Source: an uncultured Nitrospira sp. (lineage in GTDB: Bacteria > Nitrospirota > Nitrospiria > Nitrospirales > Nitrospiraceae). Taken from it: a DNA stretch of 64,000 bases. The DNA lies in contig CABVSR010000004.1 in NCBI GenBank assembly GCA_902500995.1, positions 124,001 to 188,000 on the forward strand, read 5' to 3'. The translations under genes and the position numbers were made by a program. This document shows positions 44,662-50,907 of the stretch, one piece after another; the stretch's first letter is position 1, and each line of letters begins with the position of its first letter. Below the pieces are notes generated by a model that was not told where the DNA came from, searched no databases, and was given only the letters and a program-made list of their open reading frames with translations.

Positions 44662-45294
44662 ATGAGGATGTGGCCCATCGCCGGCATACTGACCCTCGTG
44701 CTTCTGTCCGCCTGCACGACCCCACCGGAAATCAAACAGGCGCTCGCGACGAAAGATCAAGCTTACGCCGACAATGAACGGCTCATGCAGCAGTACCGCG
44801 AGCTCGTCAGCCGGATCACCACGCGGCATCAACTCTGGTACCGGCATATCCAAACCAGACTCAAACTGAATCTCGCGCTGGAGTGGGCCACGACCAACCC
44901 CAGACGCATCGAAGTGGCGGATCCCGAGCTGGCACTGGATGATGCCGCACTGCTGGGCCCCGAGGTGATGGCGGTCGTCAACGACATCCGCCTGAAATCG
45001 TTGCCCGAGCGCAAGGGGCCGAACGGCCAGCCGGTCTTCCTGGCGGGAACGGGCGACATGAGCCATCTGATCCAATCACTTCCCGAATTGATCACCCGTG
45101 TCGAGCGCCTGGTCGCCCAGAGCTCGCAGAAGCCCTCCTCACTCGATCTTTCCGCCTTCGACCGTTACCGCACGAACGTCCAGGCCTTGCGCCGGATCAA
45201 CGGCATGATCAAACACTATCTCGATGTCGATGTCACCCTCGACCGCGGCGAGGTTCAGTCACTGGCCGAGTCCCTGCAGCAGGTGCGCCGATGA
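44662..45294 (+). CDS. Lipoprotein of unknown function (cassette gene 1)
   Basis: 210 residues from ATG 44662, which has AGGAGG at 7 bases; the longer frame to 44545 is not needed. A lipobox (LVLLSAC) gives Cys at about residue 17. The mature protein is mostly helical with heptad-like stretches (IKQALATKDQAYADNERLMQQYRELV) and no known domain. It overlaps the next frame, and the cassette is tightly spaced, so all five genes are likely one operon. Confidence 0.85.
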   Translation: MRMWPIAGILTLVLLSACTTPPEIKQALATKDQAYADNERLMQQYRELVSRITTRHQLWYRHIQTRLKLNLALEWATTNPRRIEVADPELALDDAALLGPEVMAVVNDIRLKSLPERKGPNGQPVFLAGTGDMSHLIQSLPELITRVERLVAQSSQKPSSLDLSAFDRYRTNVQALRRINGMIKHYLDVDVTLDRGEVQSLAESLQQVRR

Positions 45295-45329
45295 CCCCGC
45301 GAACCGAGCGCAACCAGAAGGAGGCTCCG

Positions 45330-46040
45330 ATGGCCGGACGCAATGTCTCGTGGCTCGCCCTCGCCGCGCTTCTCCTCATAGCCCCGGGATGTCATTCGAT
45401 CCACAGCGGATCGGTCCGCGACCTCATCCAACTCGAAGGCACGAAGATCGATGCGGCTCAAACGAACATCGATACGTTTCAGAAAGAGACGGAGGAGCGG
45501 ATCAAACTGCTGGAGAAGGCGCGCGCCGAACTGAATGTGAGCTTCAAGTCTCTGCAGACCATGGAAGCCAAACATCGTTTTTCCCTCGGAGCCTTCCGCC
45601 AGGTGACGAACAAGAAGGGCGAAGCGGCCTATGCCGCCGCCTACCTCCTGAGCCTGATTCATATGGCCGAGGCGCAGGGCCTGGAGAAGGCCGTCTGGGA
45701 TCAATTCGAAGAGGATTTCTGCGGCCTGCGCGATTCGGCCAACGCGCTCAACGATTCCTGGAAACGGACCGCCACCCTGCATGCGGAAATCCAGCGGTTT
45801 GCCAAGAAATCCGCCCTGGCGTCCGTGGATCCTGAGTTGGTCACCGCGCTGATGGAGCAGGCGCCCGGCGGCTCGGACCGGATCATGGAAATCCTAGACC
45901 ATTCCCGCACCGTCAACGACGCGCTGGAGGAAGTGGTCGGGGCGCGGATACTGCGGATCGGCGGATTGGACCGCGCGCAGGGCGTCACGGCCGATCTGGT
46001 GGAACTCCTCGACCGGATGCACACAGAAGAAGGACCGTAA
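45330..46040 (+). CDS. Coiled-coil lipoprotein of unknown function (cassette gene 2)
   Basis: 236 residues from ATG 45330 with AGGAGG at 5 bases. Signal and lipobox (LLLIAPGCHS). A coiled coil follows (residues about 35-75; DAAQTNIDTFQKETEERIKL), then helical segments. No recognisable catalytic domain. Probably envelope-anchored on the periplasmic side. Confidence 0.85.
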   Translation: MAGRNVSWLALAALLLIAPGCHSIHSGSVRDLIQLEGTKIDAAQTNIDTFQKETEERIKLLEKARAELNVSFKSLQTMEAKHRFSLGAFRQVTNKKGEAAYAAAYLLSLIHMAEAQGLEKAVWDQFEEDFCGLRDSANALNDSWKRTATLHAEIQRFAKKSALASVDPELVTALMEQAPGGSDRIMEILDHSRTVNDALEEVVGARILRIGGLDRAQGVTADLVELLDRMHTEEGP

Positions 46041-46051
46041 CGGAGGCCTCC

Positions 46052-46573
46052 ATGAACCGCAGCATCGACGGCATCGTCACCTTTCTTCAGGACAACGACA
46101 ATCTGATCAAACAACTGATGGAGACCGCGGAATCCGCCACGACGGAGATCGAGGCCTTGTCTACACAGGTGGACCATGCCCGCGAGGAGGCCCAAATTCT
46201 GGTGGACCAACTCGGCACGGCGGAGTTCAGCGTCGGGCGCGACGATGACACCAAGGTCCGGCAAACTGCGCTGCTCGAAGCGGTAGCGACATTGCGGAAG
46301 AAGTTCGAAACCTATAAGAACGATCCTTTGCGGCGCGGCATCTATGCAGCCGAGATCTCCAACCTGTACCTCCAGTTGGCCAATACGTACAACAATGAGA
46401 CCGTCGCCCGCATCGTGCCCTTCGAGGCCGAGGAGATCAGCACATACAAGGATCTGCTGAACAAGGCGGTCCTGGACGCGGCCACGCGCAAGCGGCGCGC
46501 CGCCGTCATCAAGGCGGCTGCGCATGTCTCAAAATTGGCGCTCGGTGTGGCCGGCAAGGTGGCCCTGGTCTGA
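46052..46573 (+). CDS. Coiled-coil protein (cassette gene 3)
   Basis: 173 residues, no signal peptide. N-terminal half is helical with a heptad pattern (LIKQLMETAESATTEIEALS), and the C-terminus is a basic helix followed by a small hydrophobic segment (HVSKLALGVAGKVALV) that could touch the membrane. Function unknown. It starts 11 bases after gene 2 and ends 1 base before gene 4. Confidence 0.82.
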   Translation: MNRSIDGIVTFLQDNDNLIKQLMETAESATTEIEALSTQVDHAREEAQILVDQLGTAEFSVGRDDDTKVRQTALLEAVATLRKKFETYKNDPLRRGIYAAEISNLYLQLANTYNNETVARIVPFEAEEISTYKDLLNKAVLDAATRKRRAAVIKAAAHVSKLALGVAGKVALV

Positions 46574-46574
46574 C

Positions 46575-47363
46575 ATGATGAACCCTGACACTCCGAAATG
46601 GATCGCGTTGCCATTGCTGCTCGCACTCGGCGCCGGCTGCACGCTCGATGCGGGATCGCGGGGGCCGTTCGGTCCTGAAGATCCTGAAACGGCCATTCCG
46701 AAACAGGCGCTTCCCGCGCAGCCGCCGGCCAGGCATGCGCTCGCCTTTACGGCCGATGAAACTCCCGGCCGCCACCTCAAGCCCAAAATGGCCGGCACAG
46801 TCGCGGACACGGCGTTGAAACGGTCGGCGAATCCTGGCGCGATGCTCACGACGACCGACATCGCCGCCTTGCGTAAAGCGGCCGAGGCCGATCCGCGTGT
46901 GGCCGGGCTGCTGGGCAGCCGCTGGGGCTTCGTGGAGGCAAATCGAGTCGCGCCTGAGGGCAAGGTTTCGTTCGGCTGCTGCCGGGACGAGGCACGGTTC
47001 GCCAGGCTCACCTACTTCAGCTACAGCCAGAATGTCGCGGTCGAGGTCCGCATGAAGGAGCAGCTGGTCGTCGATGCCGGACGCCGCGAGAGCTACCTCC
47101 CGCCCGAGGGGCCGCAGGATGTCGAACGGGGCATCGCCTTGGCCCGCGCCGACTCGCGGCTCGCAGGCCAGGTGGAATCCCTCCAGGGTCACGGGCTGTT
47201 GATGCAACCCGATATCGGCTTGTTCAGAAACGATCCTGGATACGGGCACCGCACGATCTGGATCACCTTTTCCCAGGGGCAGGATGGGGATCCGAAATTC
47301 TGGGCCGTCGTGGACCTGACCGACGACCGCGTGTTGGACGCGGGACAGGAACCGCCCCGCTAG
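46575..47363 (+). CDS. Lipoprotein resembling copper amine oxidase N2/N3 domains (cassette gene 4)
   Basis: 262 residues. Lipobox LLLALGAGC, then a low-complexity linker. The region LRKAAEADPRVAGLLGSRWG, with VNQ-type follow-up FARLTYFSYSQNVAVEVRMK and LVVDAGRRES, resembles the N2 domain of copper amine oxidases (ADPRV, RR...Y.R, VVD) and the part DVERGIALARADSRLAG resembles the start of N3. The similarity is by eye and weak, but the next gene encodes a protein like the catalytic domain, which supports it. A split enzyme is inferred. Confidence 0.7.
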   Translation: MMNPDTPKWIALPLLLALGAGCTLDAGSRGPFGPEDPETAIPKQALPAQPPARHALAFTADETPGRHLKPKMAGTVADTALKRSANPGAMLTTTDIAALRKAAEADPRVAGLLGSRWGFVEANRVAPEGKVSFGCCRDEARFARLTYFSYSQNVAVEVRMKEQLVVDAGRRESYLPPEGPQDVERGIALARADSRLAGQVESLQGHGLLMQPDIGLFRNDPGYGHRTIWITFSQGQDGDPKFWAVVDLTDDRVLDAGQEPPR

Positions 47364-47378
47364 GCGAAAGGAACCGGA

Positions 47379-48359
47379 ATGAATCGGATGGCACTCGGCT
47401 TAGCCCTCTGGCTCGGCATCCTCACGCTCCCCCTGACCGCTTCGGCGGATCCGGCCGCGGAGCATGTGGAATGGGGGCGCTGGACGCTCGATTACGAAGT
47501 GCGGGACAACACCGGCCTCACGCTACGCAATGTGTCCTATGGCGGGGAATTGGTCCTGGGCAAGGCCAGCATGCCGGTCGTACGCGTTAAGTACGTGAAG
47601 GAAATGGTCTGGTGGAATCCGTTCACCTGGTTCGGCTCCCGCGCCGAGAGCGGCCGCTGCGGCCCTTTCCAGGATCGATTACGCTGGCAAGATCTGGCCC
47701 CCATCGCCAATTGCGCCGACAACAAGGTCTGCGTCGAGCGCGCGACTGTGAACGGGGTGCAGTGGCTGGAGATCGGCATCTATGCGCGGATCGGCGAATA
47801 CCACCTCTACCAGGCCTGGCATTTCTCCGAAGACGGCGAGTTGCGCCCCACCCTCCACAGCCGCGGCCTCTCCTGCAACACCGACCATCATCACCATGCC
47901 TACTGGCGACTGGACTTCGACGTGAACGGGAACGGCCAGGATCAGGTCTTCGTCCACGATGGCGGAGGCCCGGACAAGGGATGGGGAGCAGGCTGGCGAA
48001 AATATACCAACGAACGGAACGACGTCAAAAGCCCCGCCACCCAACGTGTCTGGTTCGTGCGTGACCAACCGACGGGGCATGGCGTGTGGATCCTGCCGGG
48101 CGACGGCTACCTTCCCCTGAAAGATGACGGCGAACGGGATAAGTTCGGCGACCTCGATGTGGCCATCCGGCGCGCCAGCCCGGCGGAAGATCTGCCGTGG
48201 ACCTTCGGCGCGCGCGGCCAACTGGGATATGACGAAGACAATCAAGGCGTCCAGGAACAGGATGTCGTGGTCTGGTATGTGGCGCACCTCCCCCACATGG
48301 CGGCGCTCGGCCCGACCAAGTGGCTGACCCTGGGACCGACTCTGAAAATTCAGCGCTAG
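47379..48359 (+). CDS. Secreted copper amine oxidase catalytic-domain-like protein (cassette gene 5)
   Basis: 326 residues with a signal peptide (cleavage near TASADPA). Family segments in order: WTLDYEVRDNTGLTLRNVSY (compare GLVLxNVxY), VKEMVWWNPFTWFG, GEYHLYQAWHFSEDGEL with Tyr141 at the position of the TPQ cofactor Tyr, DHHHHAYWRLDFDVNG with H170 and H172 as the HxH copper pair, and DVVVWYVAHLPH with H303 as the third copper ligand. Full enzymes have about 650 residues; this is half as long and lacks the usual NYD spelling (EYH here) and a clear catalytic Asp. It may be an oxidase with altered activity or a copper-binding relative. Confidence 0.72.
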   Translation: MNRMALGLALWLGILTLPLTASADPAAEHVEWGRWTLDYEVRDNTGLTLRNVSYGGELVLGKASMPVVRVKYVKEMVWWNPFTWFGSRAESGRCGPFQDRLRWQDLAPIANCADNKVCVERATVNGVQWLEIGIYARIGEYHLYQAWHFSEDGELRPTLHSRGLSCNTDHHHHAYWRLDFDVNGNGQDQVFVHDGGGPDKGWGAGWRKYTNERNDVKSPATQRVWFVRDQPTGHGVWILPGDGYLPLKDDGERDKFGDLDVAIRRASPAEDLPWTFGARGQLGYDEDNQGVQEQDVVVWYVAHLPHMAALGPTKWLTLGPTLKIQR

Positions 48360-48609: not shown

Positions 48610-49407
48610 ATGAGTCAGCCGGCATTTTCCGCCAAGGAATTTCAGCGGCTCGGCGAGATCATGTATCACGCGCGCTCCGTCGATCGAAACGACGGGGTGT
48701 GGCAACTGGTGTCGGCCGTGCAACGAGTCGTGCCCTATGAATTTTCGGGATGCGGCGCGGTGGATCTTCTGCATGGCATCGATCCGTCTCTCGGACATTC
48801 CACGTATCCCCGGGAATTCTGCCAACTGTACATGGGCCAGGGCCTCGCGGCGGATCCGGCCGTCCACCGTCTGCTCACCTCCGGCCAAACCGTCACCTCC
48901 AGCGCCGATGAACCAGTCGGCCACGAGCCGAAAGACATCACGTCGCTCAAGCTCGATTTCGGCATCAAAACCTGCCTCTCGGCCGGCGTGCGCGGCGATC
49001 ACGGAGCCTGCTCCTACTTTGCCTTCAGCAATTTTGACGCCAAACAGGCGGAGAAATTGCGCCTCCTCCTCGACATTCTGACGCCGCATTTCCACTTGAG
49101 TTATATGCGCTGCAAATCGGCCTGGCGCCCTATCCGGCCTGTCCAGTCCGCTGCCCTGCTCAGCAAACGGGAAGAAGAAATCCTCCGCTGGGTGGCGGCG
49201 GGCAAGACGAACTGGGAAATCTCGGTCATTCTCAAAGTCAGTTTGAACACGGTCAAATTTCATCTCAAGAATATTTTCCAGAAGATCGGCGTCGAAAACC
49301 GATGGAGCGCCATTGCCTACTGGCAAACCGGTGAGCAGCATCGGACTATTCCATCCTCGGCGCCCAGTGACGATCGACTCACTGCCGATTCCAAGGCGCC
49401 GGACTAA
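48610..49407 (+). CDS. LuxR-family regulator, EpsA-like, with autoinducer-type sensor domain
   Basis: 265 residues. The N-terminal domain resembles LuxR autoinducer-binding domains (REFCQLYMGQGLAADPAVHRLL has the Y-x6-DP pattern). The C-terminal HTH is LSKREEEILRWVAAGKTNWE, then IVILKVSLNTVKFHLKNIFQKIGVENR-type spelling, like EpsA regulators of exopolysaccharide genes. No luxI-type synthase is in the window. Since no cognate synthase is seen it would be a solo regulator. The downstream palindrome at 49480-49497 is a candidate target. Confidence 0.85.
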   Translation: MSQPAFSAKEFQRLGEIMYHARSVDRNDGVWQLVSAVQRVVPYEFSGCGAVDLLHGIDPSLGHSTYPREFCQLYMGQGLAADPAVHRLLTSGQTVTSSADEPVGHEPKDITSLKLDFGIKTCLSAGVRGDHGACSYFAFSNFDAKQAEKLRLLLDILTPHFHLSYMRCKSAWRPIRPVQSAALLSKREEEILRWVAAGKTNWEISVILKVSLNTVKFHLKNIFQKIGVENRWSAIAYWQTGEQHRTIPSSAPSDDRLTADSKAPD

Positions 49408-49635: not shown

Positions 49636-50907
49636 ATGAAGCAGCTTGCCGCACATCCTGCAGCAATGGACGCCACATTCACTCTGCTCGACCTCCTACA
49701 ACAGCGAAAGACGCGCCGATTCGGCCGCGGCATGACCCTGCCGGGCGGCCCGCTTCAATACGCCAGTCACCATGAACCGCTCCCGCTCAGCCGGGACGAG
49801 GAACGGTTCCTGATCTATGCGGCGGTCGGCCGCACGGGACGCAATCTCGGCGACATGCAGTTTGCCGGACGCCCGGGAGCCGGCGCAGGGCAAGGCAATG
49901 CGCTGATGAATTTCAACAGTCGCACTGTCCCCAGCCCCTGCTCCGCGCAAACCACGCAGCTGTTTTATACCAATGATGACGGGGTCTTTTTTGTCGCCGG
50001 CGCGTCCGGGCCGGACCACCCCTGGGACCTGGACGTCATACAACTGCAGTCGTCCCGTCTGGACATTCCCCGCGAAGCGCCGTTCATGCTCCCCTTCAAC
50101 CAGTGGTATACGAATCGCCCCGGCACCACGCTCTTCATGCCCGTGACCAATATCGCGCTGTTGTATCTGAACCTTCTGCTGATGATGTTCAGCGAGGAGC
50201 CCGGCTATTTCATCGTCGATACGGACAACGGCAACGCCGGATGCGGGCTCGATGCCTTCCGGAAAAGCGCGGGCGGGCACCTGCATGACGACCTGAGCGC
50301 GCGCCGGATGTTCAGCTTGCGTGAACTCGACGCGGCGATTTGCGAAACCGCCATCCAAGAACAGGGCATCATCTGCGAGCATATTTCCTTGATGCAGCAA
50401 GCCCTGGGGCTCGGGGGCGGGATCCAAAGCGTGGGAAGCGGGCGCCATCTCCTGGGCCTGGAACCCCACATCTATCCCGGGCTCGGATTCCATTTCGTCG
50501 TCCCGCCGGGCAAACCCATGCGCGCAAATCCGGTCGGCATTCCAGACGTCTGGGAAGGTCCCACGCCGCCGTTCGTGCCGTCGATGAAGGACGCCGTGAC
50601 CCGTCTGGTCACCAGCAAATTCGGGCCCGACGGCACCTTCAGGAAACCGCAGGAACAGCCTTGGGTACAGGCCACCACGGCGCAACAGGTGCCGCAGCAC
50701 TCCGAACGGGCCATCGAAGCGACGATCGCGTTCACCGACTATGTGCTGAACACATACGGCCGGTTTCCAGCGCATGCCGACGCCTGCAAATCGATCGTGG
50801 CGTGCCAGACCCATCATCTGGACGAAGACTTTTACGCGACCTGTTATCCCGACTCCGCCTTGCCGGATGCGCATCGCGAACACATGCAGACGTGGCATAC
50901 CCATTGA
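49636..50907 (+). CDS. Nitroreductase-like protein of unknown function
   Basis: 423 residues, no signal peptide. LLQQRKTRRFGRGM, PLSRDEERFLIYAAVGRTG, MNFNSRTVPSPCSAQ, FPFNQW-type PFNQWYTNRPGTTLFMPV, EEPGYFIVDTDNG and the later MQQALGLGGG region match a group of nitroreductase-fold hypothetical proteins that I recall from actinobacteria and others. Whether FMN is bound is unknown. GGAAGGAGAG precedes the ATG. Located 41 bases before a ketosynthase gene in the same direction; both may be steps of a small biosynthetic route. Confidence 0.72.
   Translation: MKQLAAHPAAMDATFTLLDLLQQRKTRRFGRGMTLPGGPLQYASHHEPLPLSRDEERFLIYAAVGRTGRNLGDMQFAGRPGAGAGQGNALMNFNSRTVPSPCSAQTTQLFYTNDDGVFFVAGASGPDHPWDLDVIQLQSSRLDIPREAPFMLPFNQWYTNRPGTTLFMPVTNIALLYLNLLLMMFSEEPGYFIVDTDNGNAGCGLDAFRKSAGGHLHDDLSARRMFSLRELDAAICETAIQEQGIICEHISLMQQALGLGGGIQSVGSGRHLLGLEPHIYPGLGFHFVVPPGKPMRANPVGIPDVWEGPTPPFVPSMKDAVTRLVTSKFGPDGTFRKPQEQPWVQATTAQQVPQHSERAIEATIAFTDYVLNTYGRFPAHADACKSIVACQTHHLDEDFYATCYPDSALPDAHREHMQTWHTH

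Follow-up and report, generated by a model that had tools for sequence, protein, structure and literature searches.

Within a window of 64,000 nucleotides from an uncultured Nitrospira sp. (contig CABVSR010000004.1, positions 124,001 to 188,000), which is the whole stretch of DNA analysed here, the last two genes of a five-gene set, P0002 and P0001 (Table 1), probably encode a split, compact and envelope-anchored copper amine oxidase (CAO) made of two chains, i.e., a copper quinoprotein. We favor this reading, drawn from sequence comparison and structure prediction, because both chains are homologous to parts of CAO, the residues of the active site correspond, the chains carry separate export signals, and the genes lie side by side and are under purifying selection. 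The proposal of a split and shortened CAO at this place, which had been made from the DNA letters and their translations (the original prediction), has gained in substance: P0001 corresponds to the catalytic domain D4 by profile comparison, P0002 has the predicted fold of domains D2-D3 and the two genes are conserved as neighbors. Classical CAOs have been described as single chains acting as obligate dimers (PMC3382800). No description of a two-gene CAO, or of a Nitrospira CAO of this kind, was found in the open-access PMC literature, in keeping with the earlier statement that such a form had not been reported. The nearest case is that of Arabidopsis AtCuAO-epsilon1 and AtCuAO-epsilon2 (AT4G12270 and AT4G12280), two separate genes regarded as fragment copies of one CAO; these fragments are devoid of the active residues (PMC12058724), whereas the Nitrospira pair keeps the tyrosine and the histidines and is conserved.

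Two chains related to the parts of copper amine oxidase

Judged by the homology of its sequence, P0001 is a member of the CAO catalytic-domain superfamily. The hidden Markov model (HMM) search with the Pfam family Cu_amine_oxid (PF01179), recommended at the outset as a check, placed the protein above the curated cut-off (32.8 bits against 27, E 4.7e-8) with residues 28-77 alone matched, while the profile of the wider family of P0001 aligned over residues 28-311 with that of 11 classical CAOs, namely E. coli TynA (ECAO) and ten plasmid-borne sequences (hhalign, probability 98.5, E 3.5e-15). The secreted protein of 326 residues that had been credited with catalytic-domain features is in this way matched over nearly its full length. 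When the orthologues of P0001 were taken alone, hhalign still returned the classical profile with an E of 4.2e-8, and a reciprocal HMM search with the compact family recovered all the classical CAOs tested. Of 41 columns in which the classical CAOs do not vary, 11 show that same residue throughout the 18 compared members of the wider compact family; random pairing of columns gave a mean of 0.27 matches and a maximum of 3 over 2000 trials. One may ask whether P0001 could be a beta-rich exported protein that resembles CAO by chance, since a phmmer search against PDB sequences gave weak matches (best E 0.096) and the Pfam match spans just 50 residues. This idea is refuted by profile-profile and HMM matches that run from end to end, by a coincidence of active-site residues far above that of random pairing and by the D2-D3 fold of the adjacent gene product, and we consider it hardly credible.

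The correspondences between P0001 and ECAO rest on two joint alignments and on hhalign. Y72, Y141, H170, H172 and H306 are identical in the 18 compact and 11 classical sequences, and Y141, H170 and H172 are also invariant in the 25 orthologues of P0001. D179, D181 and D295 align with ECAO D533, D535 and D678, which we take to be residues of the putative calcium site. The original prediction had placed the precursor of topaquinone (TPQ) at Tyr141 and two copper ligands at His170 and His172, and both assignments hold in the alignments; its third histidine, His303 (48285-48287), does not, given that this column is occupied by Gly in 11 of 11 classical CAOs and by Tyr in two paralogues. For this reason H303 is rejected as a copper ligand and H306 is, by homology, the presumed third one.

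Some further traits of the catalytic chain are worth describing. The cysteine pairs C94/C166 and C112/C118 tend to co-occur or to be jointly absent across the split clade and are possible disulfides; the former, if formed, would bring the loop of D99 near that of the HxH motif. An invariant aromatic insert, WWNPFTWFGSR, is found between Y72 and D99, and the catalytic protein of a Microvirga plasmid (see below) has a glycine-zipper insert in the matching interval. Taken together, these inserts hint at a contact of the catalytic chain with the membrane or with a partner.

The lipoprotein P0002 accounts for the other half. Its predicted model reaches a predicted local distance difference test score (pLDDT) of 67 overall and mostly >80 within the two domains; in Foldseek the best 25 matches are all CAO and extend across both domains (best E 1.5e-5). 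VIA-align superimposes the model on ECAO 93-284 with a Z score of 9.3 (root-mean-square deviation 3.9 over 168 residues) and on AGAO 9-195 with a Z score of 8.8. Independently of the fold comparison, hhalign paired the P0002 family with residues 118-312 of the ECAO precursor (E 3.8e-6). The tandem D2-D3 fold of CAO is supported by the model together with these sequence profiles and, because this fold is combined with an invariant lipobox cysteine (C22), P0002 can be viewed as the missing N-terminal half of CAO plus a lipid anchor. The N2/N3-like character first ascribed to this lipoprotein survives as a D2-D3 resemblance in predicted fold and in profile-profile comparison and fails as an HMM match: the Pfam families N2 and N3 (PF02727 and PF02728) matched neither P0002 (E up to 10) nor 23 of its orthologues (E up to 1). 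A sequence search of PDB with P0002 gave no match either.

The pair thus recalls classical CAOs (E. coli TynA/ECAO, Arthrobacter globiformis AGAO and Hansenula HPAO) in the order D2-D3-D4, which is also the order of encoding here, in the D2-D3 fold and in the positions of the TPQ tyrosine, the three copper histidines, Tyr369 and the putative calcium-site acids. It departs from them in being encoded by two genes (262 and 326 residues) instead of one chain of about 620-760 residues, in its lipoprotein anchor and catalytic domain of about 300 residues, in the divergence of its TPQ motif and base column and in forming a clade of its own.

Distribution of the pair and origin of the split

Our sample comprised 246 Nitrospirota genomes, in which all the Cu_amine_oxid matches are of the compact type. 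Relatives of P0001 are present in 32 of these genomes and those of P0002 in 30, and whenever both genes are intact they are adjacent. The split was seen in at least 90 fetched loci, some of which are overlapping fetches of one place, and in virtually every complete locus the two genes are neighbors and share a strand, each chain having its own start and its own export signal. The ratio of nonsynonymous to synonymous substitution rates (dN/dS) ranges from 0.05 to 0.20 across all five genes, as expected under purifying selection; it is lowest for P0001 (0.05-0.07), followed by 0.06-0.09 for P0005, 0.12-0.14 for P0002 and 0.10-0.20 for P0003. A frameshift or an error of sequencing that interrupts a normal single-chain CAO gene could also leave two neighboring frames with successive parts of a known protein. 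Such an artefact is refuted by the recurrence of the split in about 30 genomes, by the separate starts and export signals, by the selection acting on both genes and by the supported clade that split forms constitute (see below), and we give it practically no chance.

The two-gene layout reaches beyond the Nitrospiraceae. A genome from another family of Nitrospirales (G189) has the two genes overlapping and lacks the coiled-coil genes, and the same holds for a plasmid of Microvirga ossetica, the distribution outside Nitrospirota having been sampled through plasmid records only. Within the Nitrospirota sample, the layout also occurs as a paralogue at a second locus (L066) of genome G199. The coiled-coil genes are accordingly ruled out as a necessity for the pair, which is alone in G189 and Microvirga; because it stands alone elsewhere, we regard the pair as the core, to which the upstream trio is a Nitrospiraceae-specific addition, perhaps an accessory for anchoring or assembly. 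Apart from a single fragment in G167, P0004 was found only in those Nitrospiraceae genomes in which the pair, or what is left of it, is present. The upstream trio, which had been placed with the pair in a shared operon and envelope complex, does belong to that operon in the window, but its absence outside Nitrospiraceae speaks against a needed part of the pair.

At L073 (G036), L072 (G202), L074 (G097) and L064 the pair is broken or incomplete, with both genes in pieces and P0003 and P0004 often intact; these fragmented copies imply an ongoing loss of the system in part of the Nitrospiraceae. As regards the Microvirga plasmid (NZ_CP016619.1), the annotated start of the catalytic gene at L104:3863-6055 (WP_237050707.1, locus 4235) omits the beginning of the catalytic domain; upstream of this start the reading frame remains open and overlaps the partner gene. 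Its product carries FG-GAP-like repeats at the C-terminus besides the glycine-zipper insert.

The maximum-likelihood tree sets the compact family apart from classical CAOs (100/100) and resolves single-chain compact forms (100/99) and split forms (98/95) as sister clades; long branches (Nonomuraea and ECAO) were flagged, and the fine placement is uncertain. The single-chain compact relatives, of about 520-560 residues, come from Nitrospira (L067-L070), Variovorax and Nonomuraea. They share with the pair a compact catalytic domain with the tyrosine, the three histidines and an equivalent of D99, but differ from it by the fusion of an N-terminal region of about 240 residues and by showing no evident export signal. 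Since this sister clade and the classical CAOs are both single-chain, the simplest scenario requires a single split event and, on the basis of the sequence tree, the split probably arose once. The Variovorax member (WP_162487223.1, 558 residues) is annotated as a 'hypothetical protein'. On a plasmid of Variovorax sp. WDL1 the single-chain compact CAO-like gene (L106:5272-7077) has a galactose-oxidase-like gene as its neighbor, and a second plasmid of this strain carries the single-chain gene in identical form (H45 and H46).

These distributions also bear on the role of the lipoprotein. The D2-D3 domains of classical CAOs carry no active-site residues, and one may conceive that the catalytic chain works alone and that P0002 is a membrane adaptor, a chaperone or a copper-delivery factor that reuses the D2-D3 fold without being a stoichiometric subunit. 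The faster evolution of P0002 relative to P0001, as measured by dN/dS, is in line with this idea, as are the locus L065, in which the partner gene is reduced to a fragment, and the partner of the G199 paralogue (L066:3588-4346), whose histidine-rich N-terminus GPRHSHNHSHEG follows a hydrophobic segment and may bind metal. Against it, the near-strict adjacency and the co-occurrence of the two genes, as well as the existence of single-chain relatives whose N-terminal region is of like size, favor a stoichiometric subunit, and we find a catalytic chain working without P0002 improbable.

Proposed catalysis by a compact active site

Several findings weigh against an enzyme of this kind. The TPQ consensus of CAO, T-x-x-N-Y-D/E (PMC3382800), is not kept in P0001, which reads R-I-G-E-Y-H; non-conserved residues stand opposite the catalytic-base position, ECAO D383, in the automatic alignment; P0001 is about 60-100 residues shorter than a classical D4, as deduced from motif spacings; and its AlphaFold2 model, built with 25 close orthologues, is unreliable (pLDDT 38). 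With respect to the motif, compact members differ freely at the position of the consensus Asn, where E, H, N, A, Q or W is found, and the paralogue at L066 retains I-G-N-Y-D. Titles of PDB entries for the N381A variant of AGAO refer to one holo structure and one of a catalytic intermediate (7wir and 7wis); going by these titles, the loss of the consensus Asn need not abolish the cofactor. For the base, D99 is a candidate put forward by sequence conservation. The shortening is visible in the interval from the TPQ tyrosine to HxH (29-32 residues in compact forms, 29 in P0001, vs 49-58 in classical ones) and in that from HxH to the third histidine (118-135 vs 156-172 residues), and the missing residues are possibly those of the dimer arms. 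As to the supersandwich fold of D4, 50 of the 50 matches listed by Foldseek for the unreliable model of P0001 are CAO, none of them with E < 0.001. We have refrained from filing P0001 as a classical primary-amine oxidase because it lacks the single-chain architecture, scores 19.6 bits against a cut-off of 651 with NCBIfam PRK11504 (single-chain primary-amine oxidase) and diverges from the TPQ consensus.

The main rival explanation is built on this divergence. It supposes that the split CAO homologue has kept copper binding and lost amine oxidation, i.e., that it is a copper-holding or structural protein of the envelope in which the tyrosine is an unmodified metal ligand. Such a function would be consistent with the conservation of the metal-site histidines next to non-conserved TPQ neighbors and base column, with the substantial loss of loops in P0001 and with the decayed copies in some genomes. 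Yet both Y141 and Y72 are invariant in 18 of 18 compact members, which pure copper storage would not demand, and the complete I-G-N-Y-D of the paralogue is likewise at odds with it. We deem this rival unlikely while taking it seriously, and it seems likely from the sequence that P0001 works like a CAO.

Should the two genes indeed encode a split CAO, P0002 would supply D2-D3 and its lipid anchor would tether the enzyme to the outer membrane, where P0001, as a shortened D4, would assemble with it non-covalently. Topaquinone would arise by oxidation of Y141, effected by copper bound to H170, H172 and H306, and would in turn oxidize primary amines with formation of aldehyde, ammonium and H2O2, D99 acting as the putative base. 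We are more tentative about the wider picture, which we find conceivable and somewhat short of probable: a compact branch of the CAO superfamily in which D2-D3 has become a detachable membrane-anchored subunit, a minimal catalytic domain generates topaquinone in the absence of the canonical Asn, and Nitrospira possesses an envelope amine oxidase that frees ammonium. A natural two-chain CAO, if true, would make the role of D2-D3 testable by omitting that subunit, and a catalytic domain so reduced in length would reveal the minimal needs of topaquinone biogenesis. In terms of nitrifier ecology, it suggests a possible extracytoplasmic release of ammonium from amines by Nitrospira, which are nitrite-oxidizing bacteria. 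Transcription of an 'amine oxidase' by Ca. Nitrospira has been reported in one field study, which does not state the type of the enzyme (PMC11327836).

Gene order and neighboring genes

The five genes spanning 44662-48359 lie on the + strand with successive gaps of about 35, 11, 1 and 15 nucleotides. The tight five-gene operon put forward for this interval is borne out by the shared strand and the short gaps. N. defluvii possesses the operon as well (L033), and the named loci nearest to the window belong to Nitrospira sp. and Ca. N. defluvii.

Table 1. Positions, in window coordinates, of the five genes and of the residues and domains discussed in the text
Feature	Position	Strand	Description
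Gene 1, P0003 (210 residues)	44662..45294	+	helical lipoprotein, no family assigned; orthologues keep the lipobox
Gene 2, P0004 (236 residues)	45330..46040	+	helical, coiled-coil-like lipoprotein, no family assigned
Gene 3, P0005 (173 residues)	46052..46573	+	coiled-coil-like, without export signal
Gene 4, P0002 (262 residues)	46575..47363	+	lipoprotein with two CAO D2-D3-like domains
P0002 Cys22	46638..46640	+	lipobox cysteine, invariant in 24 orthologues
P0002 residues 93-171	46851..47087	+	first alpha+beta unit, D2-like
P0002 residues 180-258	47112..47348	+	second alpha+beta unit, D3-like
Gene 5, P0001 (326 residues)	47379..48359	+	exported compact CAO catalytic domain (D4)
P0001 Tyr72	47592..47594	+	aligns with ECAO Tyr369; near cofactor position
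P0001 residues 76-88, EMVWWNPFTWFGSR region	47604..47642	+	aromatic-rich insert between Tyr72 and Asp99
P0001 Asp99, motif CGP[FY]xD	47673..47675	+	sole invariant acidic residue between Tyr72 and Tyr141; candidate catalytic base
P0001 Tyr141	47799..47801	+	aligns with TPQ precursor ECAO Tyr466
P0001 His170	47886..47888	+	aligns with Cu ligand ECAO His524
P0001 His172	47892..47894	+	aligns with Cu ligand ECAO His526
P0001 His306	48294..48296	+	aligns with Cu ligand ECAO His689

Neither Pfam nor NCBIfam provided a family for the products of the first three genes. The lipobox of P0004 is clear in the orthologues and weak in the copy of the window, and P0005 has no export signal despite its place between lipoprotein genes and ends with a hydrophobic C-terminus AAHVSKLALGVAGKVALV. 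Just downstream of the pair, positions 48610-49407 encode a LuxR-type regulator with an autoinducer-binding domain, whose position is kept in 15 of 32 related loci; an open frame of 423 residues (49636-50907) without a Pfam match is kept beside this regulator in 14 of the 32.
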